Source: Gemmatimonadaceae bacterium (lineage in GTDB: Bacteria > Gemmatimonadota > Gemmatimonadetes > Gemmatimonadales > Gemmatimonadaceae). Taken from it: a stretch of 64,000 nt of DNA. A model generated the notes under the pieces. That model was not told where the DNA came from and did no database searches. It saw only the letters and a list, made by a program, of their open reading frames with translations. The stretch spans positions 62,001 through 126,000 of the forward strand of contig DASXKV010000068.1 in NCBI GenBank assembly GCA_036496605.1, given 5' to 3'. Each line of letters opens with the position of its first letter. Position 1 is the stretch's first letter. Below, one piece after another: positions 1,930 through 24,580 of the stretch. The position numbers were made by a program, and so were the translations under genes.

Positions 1930-1997
1930 GGTGCTAGGTGCTAGGTGCTAGGTGCCAGGAATCAGCATTCGCTTAGCACGGAGCACCTATCACCTCT
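1930..1997. repeat. GTGCTAG tandem-word hairpin, copy 1
   Basis: Three exact GTGCTAG heptamers and one variant (GTGCCAG) run from 1931 to 1958. About 20 bases later comes an imperfect complementary arm containing AGCACC and TATCACCTC. The whole can fold into a long imperfect hairpin between glcF and ygfZ. There is no U-tract, so it is not a classical intrinsic terminator. The same words recur near 15.1, 24.5, 55.0 and 61.4 kb. Confidence 0.8.
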
Positions 1998-16342: not shown

Positions 16343-17365
16343 ATGGCTGAGGAGATCAAAGACATTACCATCATTGGCGGAGGGCCAACGGGACTCTTCG
16401 CCCTTTTTTACGCGGGCATGCGAGGTGCGTCGGCGCAAATCATTGATGCGCTTCCGGACGCAGGCGGACAGCTGACCGCTCTGTATCCCGAGAAGTACAT
16501 CTTTGACGTTGCCGGCGTTCCGCAGGTGCTCGCGAAGGATTTGGTGAAATCGCTCGTCGAACAGGCGGGACGCTTTCAACAGCCGATTCACCTGACGCAC
16601 CGCGTGACCGGCTTAGAGCAGGACGGAAATCAGTTCGTCCTCGTCACGGAAAAAGACCGATTTCCGACGCGGACGATCATCGTAGCGGCTGGCATCGGAG
16701 CTTTTTCGCCCCGCCGGTTGCCGCAGCGATGCGCGGAGCCGTGGTACGGCCGCGGGATTTACGACGTCGTGACCGATCCCGAGGCATTTCGTGATCAGCG
16801 AGTGCTGATCATCGGCGGTGGCGATTCGGCGTTCGATTGGGGGACGCAGCTCATCGGACGCGCCTCACGAGTTGCGCTGGCGCACCGCAGCGATCGATTC
16901 CGGGCGCACGACGCAACGGTCGCCGAGTTTCGAGCGGCGGTAAGTTCGGGTAGCGCGGATCTCTACGCCTTCCACGAGCTGCACGACATCCAGTGCCGGA
17001 ACGGAGGCGAGCACTTCTCGCATGTCGTGTTGCGTGACATCAAGGCGAAGTCGACGCGCGACGTCGAGATCGACGTCGTGCTGCCGATGCTCGGCTTCGT
17101 GAGCGACATGGGCGCAATCGGAGAGTGGGGCCTAACGATCGAGAAGGACGAGATCGTGGTGAACAGCCAGATGGAGACTGGCCGAGTGGGCATCTGGGCT
17201 GCGGGCGACGTCACGACGTATCCTGGAAAGCTCAAATTGATTGCGACAGGATTCGGTGAGGCAGCGACGGCGGTGAATCAGGCGGTCCACTGGATCTATC
17301 CCGAGAAGAAGGTCGCGCCTGGGCATTCATCGAACATGGCTATCTTCGGCCAGAAGGACGACTGA
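16343..17365 (+). CDS. Ferredoxin-NADP+ reductase, thioredoxin-reductase-like type
   Basis: 340 residues of the two-dinucleotide-domain flavoprotein fold. The FAD motif IIGGGPTGL is at about 10-18; the NADPH motif LIIGGGDSAFDW follows near 155, and GIWAAGDV near 290 closes the FAD site. The CxxC redox pair of thioredoxin reductase is absent, and the DAGGQLTALYPEKYI segment is typical of YumC-type ferredoxin-NADP reductases. It moves electrons between NADPH and ferredoxin or flavodoxin in the cytoplasm. It is monocistronic, convergent with thrC. Confidence 0.9.
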   Translation: MAEEIKDITIIGGGPTGLFALFYAGMRGASAQIIDALPDAGGQLTALYPEKYIFDVAGVPQVLAKDLVKSLVEQAGRFQQPIHLTHRVTGLEQDGNQFVLVTEKDRFPTRTIIVAAGIGAFSPRRLPQRCAEPWYGRGIYDVVTDPEAFRDQRVLIIGGGDSAFDWGTQLIGRASRVALAHRSDRFRAHDATVAEFRAAVSSGSADLYAFHELHDIQCRNGGEHFSHVVLRDIKAKSTRDVEIDVVLPMLGFVSDMGAIGEWGLTIEKDEIVVNSQMETGRVGIWAAGDVTTYPGKLKLIATGFGEAATAVNQAVHWIYPEKKVAPGHSSNMAIFGQKDD

Positions 17366-17406
17366 ACGGCCGGGTGCCCAGGGACCAGGTCCACCGGCGA
17401 CGACTT

Positions 17407-18735
17407 CTAGTGAGCGGATTGTAGAACGCGTTGCACTGCGCTCAACTGCGCATCGATCTCGATCGGCCGGTTTGCGTGCGTCGGCGCGGGCTCGGTTTCG
17501 CGGTGGTACTGAAGAAGGATCCCGGGGTCCTTGAGGATGTGCCCCGTCAGCACGGCGACCACCACCTCGTCGGGGCGGATCACGCCTCGCCTAACGAGCT
17601 CGCGAACTCCGGCGACACTGGCGGCGCTCGCGGGCTCGCAGCCGACGCCCGAGGCGTCGACGATGGCTTTGGCCTCGAGAATCGCGGCATCGGAAACGTC
17701 GAGGACGACGCCATTCGTCTCACGGATGACGCGCACGGCGCGGCTGTACGAGGCCGGATCGCCGATGCGAATCGCGGTCGCCACGGTCTCGGCGCGCATC
17801 GTGTGTCGCGTACGGAAATCGTCGCGATAGCTCGCGGCGAATGGCGCGGCGCCGGAGGCCTGCACCGCCGCAATGCGCGGCATCTTCTCGATCAACCCGA
17901 GATTGAAGGCGTTCTCGAGAGCAGCGCCGAAGGCTGACGTGTTTCCGAGATTGCCCGCGGGGAGCGTGATCCAGTCCGGCGCGCGCCAACTCAACTGCTG
18001 GAGCAGCTCGATCACGATCGTCTTCTGCCCAGCGATACGGTAGGGATTGATCGAGTTGGCGAGGTAGACGCCGAGATGCTCGGCGGCCTCGCGCGCGAGA
18101 CGCATACAATCGTCGAAGTCGCCGCGAACGAGAAGCGTCCGCGCGCCGTACGCAAGCGACTGGGCGAGCTTGCCTAACGACACATGACCGCTCGGCACGA
18201 GGACGAGCGCGGGGAGCCCTGCGTGCGCGGCATAAGAGGCGAGCGAGGCGGCAGTATTTCCAGTGGAGGCGCAGGCAACGGCAGAGGCCCCGACCCGACG
18301 CGCTTGCGTGACCGCCACCGTCATACCGCGATCCTTGAATGATCCAGTCGGATTTGCTCCCTCATGTTTGAGCAGCAGCGCGTTGACGCCGGTCCATTTC
18401 GAAGCGAACGCGCGCTGCAGGAGAGGCGTATTCCCCTCGGGATGCGTCACGACATCGCTCGCCTTCGCATCGGGCAGGACCAGCTCCCGGTAGCGCCAGA
18501 CTCCGGAGGCGTCGAGCGGAATCGCGTCACCCGCCACTGGGTCATACCCCAACGCCGCCGCGCGACGCCCATCGAAGCGCGCACGGAGCTTCTTTCCCCT
18601 CTCGGCTGGCGCCTTGTACTCCAGCGCCAGCAGTCCACCGCAGCGAGGGCATTGAGTGATGATCTCCAGCGCCCCAAGCTCGTTCCCGCAATCGTCGCAG
18701 CGTTGTTTCGTGTGCGACGTCTCGATCGACGTCAT
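17407..18735 (-). CDS. thrC: Threonine synthase
   Basis: 442 residues. An N-terminal zinc-ribbon-like CDDCG/CPRCG pair precedes the PLP fold, with the Schiff-base lysine in GANPTGSFKDRG and the phosphate-binding GNLGNTSAFG. It converts O-phosphohomoserine to threonine. The start overlaps the stop of the upstream aspartokinase-homoserine dehydrogenase by 4 bases, forming a two-gene threonine operon. Homoserine kinase (thrB) is not in the window. Confidence 0.95.
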   Translation of the reverse strand: MTSIETSHTKQRCDDCGNELGALEIITQCPRCGGLLALEYKAPAERGKKLRARFDGRRAAALGYDPVAGDAIPLDASGVWRYRELVLPDAKASDVVTHPEGNTPLLQRAFASKWTGVNALLLKHEGANPTGSFKDRGMTVAVTQARRVGASAVACASTGNTAASLASYAAHAGLPALVLVPSGHVSLGKLAQSLAYGARTLLVRGDFDDCMRLAREAAEHLGVYLANSINPYRIAGQKTIVIELLQQLSWRAPDWITLPAGNLGNTSAFGAALENAFNLGLIEKMPRIAAVQASGAAPFAASYRDDFRTRHTMRAETVATAIRIGDPASYSRAVRVIRETNGVVLDVSDAAILEAKAIVDASGVGCEPASAASVAGVRELVRRGVIRPDEVVVAVLTGHILKDPGILLQYHRETEPAPTHANRPIEIDAQLSAVQRVLQSAH

Positions 18736-21257
18736 CGCGACCCCGCGATCTTGAGGACGTCATTGAGGACGCCGGCAGCGGTCACCGCCACGCCAGCGCC
18801 CGGGCCGGTGATGACGATCGGGTTGGTGCGATATCGCGACGTCGTTATGGCGAACTGGTTATCCGTACCCGTGAGCGTGGCAAACGAGCTGCCCAACGAA
18901 ACACCGACGAGCCCGACGTGTACGCTGACTGGCGTTACGGTCGCGCGATAGCGCAGCACATTCTCCGCGGAGCGCGCTCGGTCTACTCGCTCGTGCCACG
19001 CGCGATCCATCTCGTCGAGTCGAGCGATGAATTGGCTCAAGGTCGCGTCGCGCAAGTGGGCCGGTACCAGTGACTCGACTTCTACGGCTTCGAGCTCGCC
19101 CTCGAAGCCGAGCAATCGGCTCAGAATCAGCGCCTTACGAGCGACGTCCATACCAGAAAGATCTTCGCGCGGATCGGGTTCGGTGTAGCCCAACTCCATT
19201 GCGGTACGGAGCGCCGCGGAGAAGGATGCACCGCGTCCGAGCTCGCCGAAGAGGTAGCCGAGCGTTCCCGAGGGGCAGCCTTCGATCCGCAGGATCTCAT
19301 CGCCCGACTCCTGCAATTTCTTGATTGTGTCGATGATTGGGAGTCCGGCGCCGACGGTTGCTTCATGGAGCAGGCGTCGGCCGCGCGCCGCGGCGGCACG
19401 CCGCAGGCCTCCCGTCGAACCGCTCGCGGAAGCGAGTGGCCGCTTGTTGGCGAGCACGATGTCCATTCCGGCGTGCAGCGCGGTCTCGAGTATGTCGGCC
19501 GTGTCTCCAGCTGTGACGTCAACGAGGATCGGTCTCGAGAGCGCGTGCTGCGCGACATCGTCGAGCGCCTGGCGCGCGTTTGCGCGAATGCCGCCACGCA
19601 TGTCGGCGAGTGCGACGCCTGACTCCTTTTCCTTGGTGAGCGCTGCAAGTTGGCGCCCGGGAATGCCGCGCGGATTGAAAACGTAGCCGCTGCTGTCGAT
19701 GACCGCGACGACGCGAGCACCGTGTGGTCCCTGCGCTTCTTTCGCGGTCGTTAATTGCGCCCCGAGCTCGCGTCCGATGCGTCCGAAGCCGAGGATCACG
19801 ACATCGGCTTTGTTCGATACGGACGCAGCGCCGCCGCCGATCTTGCTGAGACGGAACGCGTCGTGGACGGCGCGCTGAACGCGCGATGCGCTCTTCTCGT
19901 CCACGACCACGGAGATATTGAGCTCCGACGCGCCCTGTGCAATCGCGATGACACTTGTCTTGGTACTGGCGATTGCCTCGAAGAGCCGCGCTGCGACGCC
20001 GATCGTTCCGGCCATACCGAGGCCTACGATAGCGAGGATCGCCGCGCCTGGTCGCACGTCGATTCCTTCCACCTCACGTGCCTCGAGTTGCTGCGCAAAG
20101 GCGTCGCGAAGCGCCGCCTCCGCCTCGCTCGCGACGCTGCCGGGCACGGCGAGACAGATCGAGTGTTCGGAAGACGCCTGGGAAATGAGCGCTACCGAAA
20201 TTCCAACCTTCTGCAGGGCGTCGAAGGCGCGCGCGGCGATTCCGGGAACGCCGACCATTCCGTCGCCCGAGATCGTGACAAGTGCTTGATCTCCAATGGT
20301 CGTCACCGCGCGCACGGGATGACGTTTCTCCGCGCCGCGATCTCGGCGGGTACAGATCTCGGTGCCAGCAGCATCGGGGTCGGCGAGGGGGCGGATGAAA
20401 AGCCGTGTTTTCTCGGTCAGACCGAGCAGCGCTCGCGGATGCAGAACCTTCGCGCCGTAGTAGGCCAGCTCCGCCGCCTCGCGCACGTGCACCCGCGGGA
20501 TAAGCCGAGCATCCGGTACGGCTCGAGGGTCCGCGGTGAGCACGCCCGGGACGTCCTTCCAGAGCGTAACCGTCGTTGCGCCGTTGCCTAACGACCGCCC
20601 GAGCAACGTCGCGGTGAGGTCGGATCCACCGCGGCCGAGGGTCACGAGAGCGCCTTTCGGTCCACGCGCGATGAAACCGGGCACCACCGGGATTATGCCG
20701 CGCTCCATCCGTGGCGAAAGCTCGTCGCGGACGGCGCGCCCGGTACGCTCGAAATCCGGAGTGGCATTCCCGTGTCTGCCATTGGCGTGGATGACGCGTG
20801 TTGCGTCGACGTATTCGGCGGAGAAGCCGACGCTGACGAGCGCCGCGGTGAAAAGATGGGCTGCCAGTCGCTCGCCACGGGCAACTATGCGATCGGTCAT
20901 GGCGGGCGTGAGTCGCTTCGGCGAGGCAGCGACCGCCCGAGCGATACGCGCAAGGTCGTCGAACTCGCGGTCCATGTTTCTCTGAAGACTCTTCAACTCG
21001 TTCGAGTCAATCATGAGCTCGCGCGCCGTGCGAACGTGACGGTCGCGCAATACCGCGATGAGTTCCGAAGTCCGAGCACGATCGCGACGCTTCGCCGTCG
21101 AGGCGATCTCGAATAATCCGTCCGTAACGCCGCCCATCGCTGACGCGATGATCGCAACGCCGTGCTGTTGGCCACTGGCGACGATTCCAATGGCGTGACG
21201 GATCGCTTCCGCGTTAGAGAGCGCAATACCGCCGAATTTGTGAACCACTGGATTCAT
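18732..21257 (-). CDS. thrA: Bifunctional aspartokinase/homoserine dehydrogenase
   Basis: 841 residues from the ATG at 21257, where the kinase motif begins MNPVVHKFGG. The upstream in-frame extension to 21332 has no homology and is not used. Aspartokinase occupies about 1-290 (GRGGSDLTATLLG), two ACT regulatory domains about 320-460, and homoserine dehydrogenase about 470-841 (GFGRIGRELGAQL, LANKRPLA, EATVGAGLPI, GYTEPDPREDLSG). It carries out the first and third steps of the threonine/methionine branch and is probably feedback-regulated through the ACT domains. Coupled to thrC. Confidence 0.95.
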   Translation of the reverse strand: MNPVVHKFGGIALSNAEAIRHAIGIVASGQQHGVAIIASAMGGVTDGLFEIASTAKRRDRARTSELIAVLRDRHVRTARELMIDSNELKSLQRNMDREFDDLARIARAVAASPKRLTPAMTDRIVARGERLAAHLFTAALVSVGFSAEYVDATRVIHANGRHGNATPDFERTGRAVRDELSPRMERGIIPVVPGFIARGPKGALVTLGRGGSDLTATLLGRSLGNGATTVTLWKDVPGVLTADPRAVPDARLIPRVHVREAAELAYYGAKVLHPRALLGLTEKTRLFIRPLADPDAAGTEICTRRDRGAEKRHPVRAVTTIGDQALVTISGDGMVGVPGIAARAFDALQKVGISVALISQASSEHSICLAVPGSVASEAEAALRDAFAQQLEAREVEGIDVRPGAAILAIVGLGMAGTIGVAARLFEAIASTKTSVIAIAQGASELNISVVVDEKSASRVQRAVHDAFRLSKIGGGAASVSNKADVVILGFGRIGRELGAQLTTAKEAQGPHGARVVAVIDSSGYVFNPRGIPGRQLAALTKEKESGVALADMRGGIRANARQALDDVAQHALSRPILVDVTAGDTADILETALHAGMDIVLANKRPLASASGSTGGLRRAAAARGRRLLHEATVGAGLPIIDTIKKLQESGDEILRIEGCPSGTLGYLFGELGRGASFSAALRTAMELGYTEPDPREDLSGMDVARKALILSRLLGFEGELEAVEVESLVPAHLRDATLSQFIARLDEMDRAWHERVDRARSAENVLRYRATVTPVSVHVGLVGVSLGSSFATLTGTDNQFAITTSRYRTNPIVITGPGAGVAVTAAGVLNDVLKIAGSR

Positions 21258-21475
21258 GCCCCACAAAGTGCGACGGTATGGGCATCTGCTCCAGTAGGAT
21301 GCCACAGCGAGTCCAGAGCGACGAGCCGTCACATTCAGCTCGTTGTCATTTCTTGCCTGGCTGCGAGCGAAAGCAGTGCACGTCTGGCTCGAAGAGCAGA
21401 GCGGGACGCCGTTCGTCTGACCCGGACGGCCCGAAGTTCGTCAAGCGACGTTCCACGCCGAGATGGACTCTCCCC
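21258..21475. other. Non-coding stretch before the minisatellite
   Basis: Open frames exist on both strands, but none has a Shine-Dalgarno sequence, a recognisable domain or convincing composition. The region should hold the thrA promoter on the minus strand; I cannot place it. Confidence 0.4.
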
Positions 21476-21832
21476 GAATGGAAGTTCGCGCACATCAGCT
21501 CGACGTTCGCACACAACGAGGCGCTGTCTCGACTCAGCGTGATCGGCGCAGAGGTCATCGAGCGGTGGTCATCGCTCAGCGAGTCGAGGACAGTAGACAG
21601 AAAGTTGAGGATAGGACACCGCGACTCGTGGTCGGATGGCATCGACTCCAGGACAGGAGACCGCGACTCGTGGTCGGATGGCACCGACTCCAGGACAGAT
21701 GACAGGGACTCGTGGTCGGATGGCACCGACTCCAGGACAGATGACATCTAGGCGTTGGTAGATGACATCGAGTCGCGGACAGCTCACGTGAGCAAGCCGT
21801 CAGCCGAGGTGAGGCGCCGGCAAGGTCACGTG
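21476..21832. repeat. 21-bp degenerate minisatellite, about 17 units
   Basis: Successive 21-base blocks starting at 21476 align without gaps through 21832; most begin GA(G/C)TC and end with a CATC/CACC-like tetranucleotide. The centre is nearly exact as a 42-base double unit at 21623, 21665 and 21707; conservation fades in both directions. Since 21 is a multiple of three, every frame on either strand that stays open reads as heptapeptide repeats (minus: SSVLESV-PSDHESL; another minus frame: RPRVAVS-type). No ribosome site or family supports coding. Confidence 0.85.
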
Positions 21833-22127
21833 AGGCGCCCTCCCAACGTCAGTGCAGCCGAAAAAGAAACCAAAGACGGCCTAACGATATCCACGCCGCG
21901 ACGGACGCACACGGCGTAGCGGTTCTCTTGCGTCCACTACCATATATGGAGTTGCGCCATGGAAGGTCGACCGGAAGTCGTCTCGATGGCCCGACGCTTT
22001 TCCGATCGCGGCGAATGACCTCAGTGACGTGCTCAGTGACGCGTCCGCTCGCTCGCGACGCGAGACGAGCTGGGGTACGACGCTTGCCCATCCAGGAGTG
22101 GACCCAAGGCGAGGGATTGCAAGAGTC
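21833..22127. other. Non-coding upstream region of yihY
   Basis: It contains a CCTAACG copy (21880-21886) and a perfect 10-base palindrome CCATATATGG (21940-21949), one of the few AT-rich spots of the window and a possible promoter or operator. A frame open from 22029 into yihY has an arginine-rich, unconvincing start. Confidence 0.4.
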
Positions 22128-24448: not shown

Positions 24449-24580
24449 AGGGGCCAGGGCTAGGGGATTGGGTCTAGGGATCGGGGCTAGAGAGGAGCTA
24501 GCGGAGCTGCTAGGTGCTAGGTGCTAGGTGCTAGGTGCTAGGTGCTAGGTGCTAGGCGCACCAATTACCTGGCACCTCCG
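24449..24580. repeat. GGGGCTAG words followed by six exact GTGCTAG copies
   Basis: The region 24455-24500 contains GGGCTAGGGG, TCTAGGG and GGGGCTAGAG. Then six exact tandem copies of the heptamer GTGCTAG run from 24514 to 24555, with a degenerate copy before. A short complementary arm (ACCTGGCACCT) ends at about 24577, next to the permease stop. This is the longest uninterrupted heptamer array in the window, and CTAG is normally scarce in bacterial DNA. Confidence 0.85.

Follow-up and report, generated by a model that had tools for sequence, protein, structure and literature searches.

The 21-bp tandem repeat between thrA and yihY in a Gemmatimonadaceae bacterium is best explained as the 5' portion of a relic cassette, one copy of a dispersed family, a reading to which we assign a probability of about 0.78. 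The cassette would consist, in order, of a noncoding 21-bp array, a hairpin/pseudoknot leader RNA, a ribosome-binding site, and gene X, which encodes a protein of ~240 residues. Our computations establish the period, the noncoding behavior of the relics, and a link between arrays and X genes that holds across genera; they also show that the leader helices covary and that X is missing from the window, by which we mean the whole 64,000-nucleotide stretch analyzed (GenBank assembly GCA_036496605.1, contig DASXKV010000068.1, positions 62,001 to 126,000). The array occupies the following positions:

21476 to 21832, plus strand: 21-bp tandem array, the noncoding array part of the cassette, with homologous arrays elsewhere in the genome
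21621 to 21746, within the array: 42-bp double units

Across 21476-21832, lags 21 and 42 gave self-match values of 0.55 and 0.62, respectively, and the highest value among 500 dinucleotide shuffles was 0.33 to 0.35; TRF reported a 42-bp unit at 21621-21746 (3.0 copies, 94%) together with 21- and 84-bp rows. The original prediction of a 21-bp minisatellite with decaying units is thus borne out, including its three near-identical central double units and the outward decay of copies; only its count of about 17 units was slightly generous, the clean register running from ~21518 to 21832 (~15 units) and being weak before ~21518. All six matches to the unit pattern in the window fell inside the array (chance expectation, 0.5). 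The flanking genes were confirmed with Pfam as thrA (minus strand, start at ~21257) and yihY/BrkB (22128, plus strand), which places the array upstream of yihY, as proposed.

Downstream of the array, the remaining parts of the putative cassette were mapped as follows:

21873 to 21951, plus strand: conserved leader module (hairpin and pseudoknot), matched by covariance model R1 with an E value of 1.2e-18, the window copy being one of the five training sequences
21893 to 21917, plus strand: leader hairpin with arms ACGCCGCG (21893-21900) and CACGGCGT (21910-21917), five of eight pairs changed on both sides
21903 to 21909, plus strand: hairpin-loop strand of the pseudoknot, GGACGCA (helix 2 of the covariation analysis)
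21929 to 21935, plus strand: downstream strand of the pseudoknot, TGCGTCC (helix 2 of the covariation analysis)
21948 to 21951, plus strand: GGAG, resembling a ribosome-binding site and aligned with GGAG/AGAG of other copies
21959 to 22018, plus strand: possible decayed start of gene X, 19 codons (MEGRPEVVSMARRFSDRGE*), aligning without gaps with MKNREEAVLETLRGADRG of the C25 copy

The hairpin and its loop-to-downstream pseudoknot (21893-21935) follow the array at a distance of ~60 bp, and a short post-array element is common to the window, C3, and C25 arrays. A mismatch-tolerant pattern search found two more leader copies, both with the stem changed on both sides and both beside 21-bp arrays, and a scan of the examined loci ranked exactly four array-linked copies at the top. 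Model R1, built from five copies chosen partly for having arrays, matched three sites of the same genome outside its training set (C4:2639, E value of 1.6e-10; C36:145, 1.2e-7; C32:101530, 1.2e-4) and, weakly, a fourth (C12:6489). Each of the three stronger matches lies close to a 21-bp array, and directly 3' of each leader come a ribosome-binding site and a conserved open reading frame that belongs to a single family, X (in C36, up to the contig end). Both helices covaried across 12 copies, two other genomes (G007 and G078) included, with 89% of cells paired and 15 double changes, in an alignment fitted to the hairpin and not to the pseudoknot; none of 500 shuffles did as well, and sliding the pairs destroyed the signal. 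Among the leaders of 19 relatives, 9 scored at least 12 for hairpin plus loop/downstream pairing (0 to 2 per shuffle set); in roughly half of the distant leaders, no clear pseudoknot is present. The arms in these relatives are unrelated in sequence, for example, CCGGGG/CCCCGG with GGGTGCC/GGCACCC in one and CCCGTTG/CAACGGG with GGGACGC/GCGTCCC in another. Scans of the region for Rfam families (window 20-24 kb, gathering score), tRNAs, promoters, and terminators returned nothing, the leader search yielding subthreshold chance matches only.

In intact copies, the leader module sits just 5' of the ribosome-binding site of X, whose product has 248 residues in C4 and 246 in C32. Searches of X against Pfam, NCBIfam, PADLOC, and PDB sequences gave no convincing match; no transposase or nuclease family scored above cutoff, none of the RuvC/HNH type matched, and one member matched an unnamed PHROG (E value of 3e-4). 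X was found in 17 of 99 genomes and was absent from the same-genus genomes G001 and G002. Seven of the 11 matches in its own genome lie at contig ends, a position that assembly breaks at near-identical repeats would lead one to expect. Cassette copies range from intact (C4 and C32) through frameshifted (C12) to 15 to 26 codons (C33 and C25) and the 19 decayed codons of the window. No X protein match was found within the window, and the 19 codons at the expected place are a possible remnant of the gene, with ~54% DNA identity to C25 as counted by eye over a short stretch of 54 bases. Since X is gone and at most this decayed start is left, the window copy counts as a relic, no longer an intact cassette.

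The association of arrays with X was evaluated at loci chosen by X protein similarity alone (22 genes from 11 genera). Arrays with a 21-bp period lay upstream of 18 of the 22 genes and downstream of 1 (Fisher, 2.3e-7); periods of 19, 20, 22, and 23 occurred 0 to 2 times each, and four genes had no clear array. Unit sequence differs from locus to locus at a constant period of 21 bp. The copies measured have arrays of 345 to 1,210 bp, most of which end ~40 to 480 bp 5' of the X start codon and extend to about -1300. Almost none of the genes around X are conserved, a sigma-like gene standing beside one own-genome copy only; because neighboring genes are mostly unshared, the unit is a cassette and not a conserved locus.

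Within the 6.0-Mb genome, the search for the unit elsewhere, suggested with the original prediction, recovered the window units at further intergenic loci (C54, C22, C4, C51, and C3), where the arrays start just 3' of a stop codon (read by eye), and more diverged relatives at C25, C6, C61, and C15. The C25 and C61 arrays share 92% identity in unrelated gene contexts; besides other changes, a single whole 21-bp unit separates the C4 array from that of C6, and some arrays carry one-base indels. BLAST of 40 to 60 relatives with the family-A array found none, a soft negative with few candidates scored per genome. A 15-base pattern scan of genome contigs and viral contigs gave chance matches only (mainly the coding motif WSDGT), and searches of plasmids, phages, and viruses with the array or X returned no match.

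Comparison with a same-genus genome delimited one further segment:

17368 to 22062: lineage-specific segment of 4.7 kb (thrC, thrA, and array relic), missing from the corresponding site of G002

In G002, yihY comes almost immediately after the gene that corresponds to window 16343-17365; thrC, thrA, and the array are missing, and 44 bp lie at the junction that corresponds to window 17366 and 22063; G001 has other genes at the corresponding place. The spacers of G001 and G002 that are syntenic with four other array sites showed no comparable 21-bp period (for C4, a lag-21 self-match of only 0.32 to 0.34, about the shuffle maximum). Both thrC and thrA (17407-21257) are lineage specific; the window ThrA is a second copy with its best relatives outside the genus (57% in G005), and the genus-shared copy is 37% identical to it. 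Upstream of yihY, 22062-22092 (GGGGTACGACGCTTGCCCAT) is conserved in both same-genus genomes, with different sequence further upstream, and is possibly the promoter region of yihY.

The empty site in G002 would also fit a nonautonomous mobile element (MITE or REP-like) with the array and hairpin as its chance ends, as would dispersal in many copies, some decayed and some near identical and recent, among neighbors that are mostly unrelated from copy to copy. Neither defined matching ends nor target duplications were seen, however, and the cassette has no transposase, while X matches no transposase or nuclease family; we consider this origin unlikely.

A neutral intergenic minisatellite, arisen by slippage and carried to other spacers by recombination, with its proximity to the leader and X incidental, would account for an array that has no coding or folding signal, for same-genus syntenic spacers without arrays, and for the abundance of period-7n repeats in this genome. 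As a full account, it is largely refuted by the linkage test (arrays before 18 and after 1 of the 22 X genes, in 11 genera, at period 21 only), and the covarying leader module accompanies the arrays, leaving it improbable. For the window copy today, a neutral state is possible, and the relic may do nothing.

That the array itself is a decayed repeat-protein gene, one of the earlier suggestions, was not supported by comparison of homologous copies. Differences were even over the three codon positions (19, 16, and 17 for C4/C6; 7, 7, and 11 for C25/C61; 10, 10, and 11 for C25/C15), and no frame was consistently open; the array behaves as noncoding. Stop-codon counts singled out no convincing frame. 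The putative decayed gene lies downstream of the array and not in it. An ancestral coiled-coil heptapeptide protein on one strand, decayed in the relics, is very improbable: 21 bases do equal seven codons, heptads can be read in some frames, a genuine heptad gene exists in the same genome, and one minus-strand frame has slightly few stops in three arrays (P of 0.01 to 0.02 among 42 tests), but the copies show no codon-position bias, window open reading frames in the array have no Pfam match, arrays 5' of intact X genes share no open frame, and some arrays carry the one-base indels noted above. The alternative suggestion of an RNA with repeated stems failed for the array, which folds no better than shuffled sequence (z scores of -1.4 and -0.7); a covarying structured RNA does lie just outside the interval originally described.

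Other repeats were met during the analysis. Intergenic 7- and 14-bp tandem arrays occur in the window (1930-1959 and 24508-24556), elsewhere in the data set (L183, 4427-4541; L187, 2050-2227), and in G001 (L285, 10807-10935; L287, 8700-8815); several are long inverted repeats (e.g., TAGAGGG...CCCTCTA). In an unselected 200-kb stretch, 29 of 41 TRF arrays had a period divisible by 7. An origin of the 21-bp arrays from 7-bp repeats was considered and rejected, there being no consistent signal at lag 7 or lag 14. A second array family lies 3' of a multicopy sigma-70-like gene with a repetitive KKGKRS tail (Pfam Sigma70_r4_2) at L184 (16390-16954), L192 (14882-15670), and ~16 other places in the own genome, its 21-bp repeats running from the 3' end of the gene to beyond the stop codon; at one copy, C38 (L246), protein X comes next. 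A small coiled-coil heptad gene with ANQKKLD repeats and its own ribosome-binding site (L191, 8763-8948, minus strand) shows that the genome of the window array also has a 21-bp repeat that really is coding.

Several known systems resemble parts of the cassette. Like bacterial VNTRs and minisatellites, the arrays are intergenic, with head-to-tail units above chance and whole-copy changes; unlike them, they hold a period of 21 bp across genera and stand before a single gene family that has a structured leader. Iteron and partition-site arrays (plasmid origins and parS-like sites) also set even 20- to 22-bp repeats beside a gene, and by analogy, protein binding on one face of the DNA would be the natural reading here; however, X has no detectable relation to known families, there is no replication gene and no plasmid match, and no Rep or Par gene is linked, X belonging to no such family and the window neighbors being thrA and yihY. 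Intergenic heptamer repeats with a suggested regulatory role have been described for TAACTGA in Beggiatoaceae (PMC4679880) and for GGGNATC in Xanthomonas and Nostoc (PMC4692102). They likewise form many intergenic tandem arrays in one genome, but with 7-bp units of fixed sequence, whereas the present units are 21 bp long, variable in sequence, and tied to one gene family. The omega RNA (HEARO) of IscB/TnpB is similarly a pseudoknotted structured RNA beside a multicopy gene, but X has no RuvC/HNH-type match and is not recognizable as an RNA-guided nuclease gene, the leader has no Rfam match, and a 21-bp array is foreign to those elements. Autoregulatory 5' leaders, such as those of ribosomal-protein operons, share a pseudoknot just 5' of the ribosome-binding site; in contrast to these, the cassette has the array as an extra part and a protein family without known relatives, and its regulation is putative. 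We found no description of such a cassette in the open-access literature searched and could not place the combination of a fixed 21-bp period, free unit sequence, X, and a covarying pseudoknot in any known system.

Because the pseudoknot ends ~15 to 30 nt before the start codon, it is reasonable to suppose, at about even odds, that the leader is made as RNA and governs how X is translated. For the array itself, our guess, offered with some doubt, takes up the earlier suggestion of a protein-binding array: its sites, one every two turns of the helix, would be occupied again and again on a single face of the DNA by a protein, perhaps X. Such a row of binding sites would explain a constant period with variable unit sequence. 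Over time, a copy would gain or lose whole units, reach other spacers between genes, and finally degenerate. We tentatively propose that X, its pseudoknot leader, and the array may form a new kind of multicopy system in which each copy recognizes its own array.

If true, such a private system of phased sites could be selfish, chromosome organizing, or a self-controlled regulatory unit, and old copies, the window array among them, would persist as orphans. With X gone there, the window copy today may be inert or affect only its neighbor yihY. An intergenic repeat of no apparent meaning thereby becomes a testable question, namely, what binds sites exactly two DNA turns apart, and a further one is why such an array needs a folded leader. 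For annotation, heptapeptide open reading frames inside such arrays should not be called as genes, and orphan arrays in these genomes become readable as relics of lost X genes.
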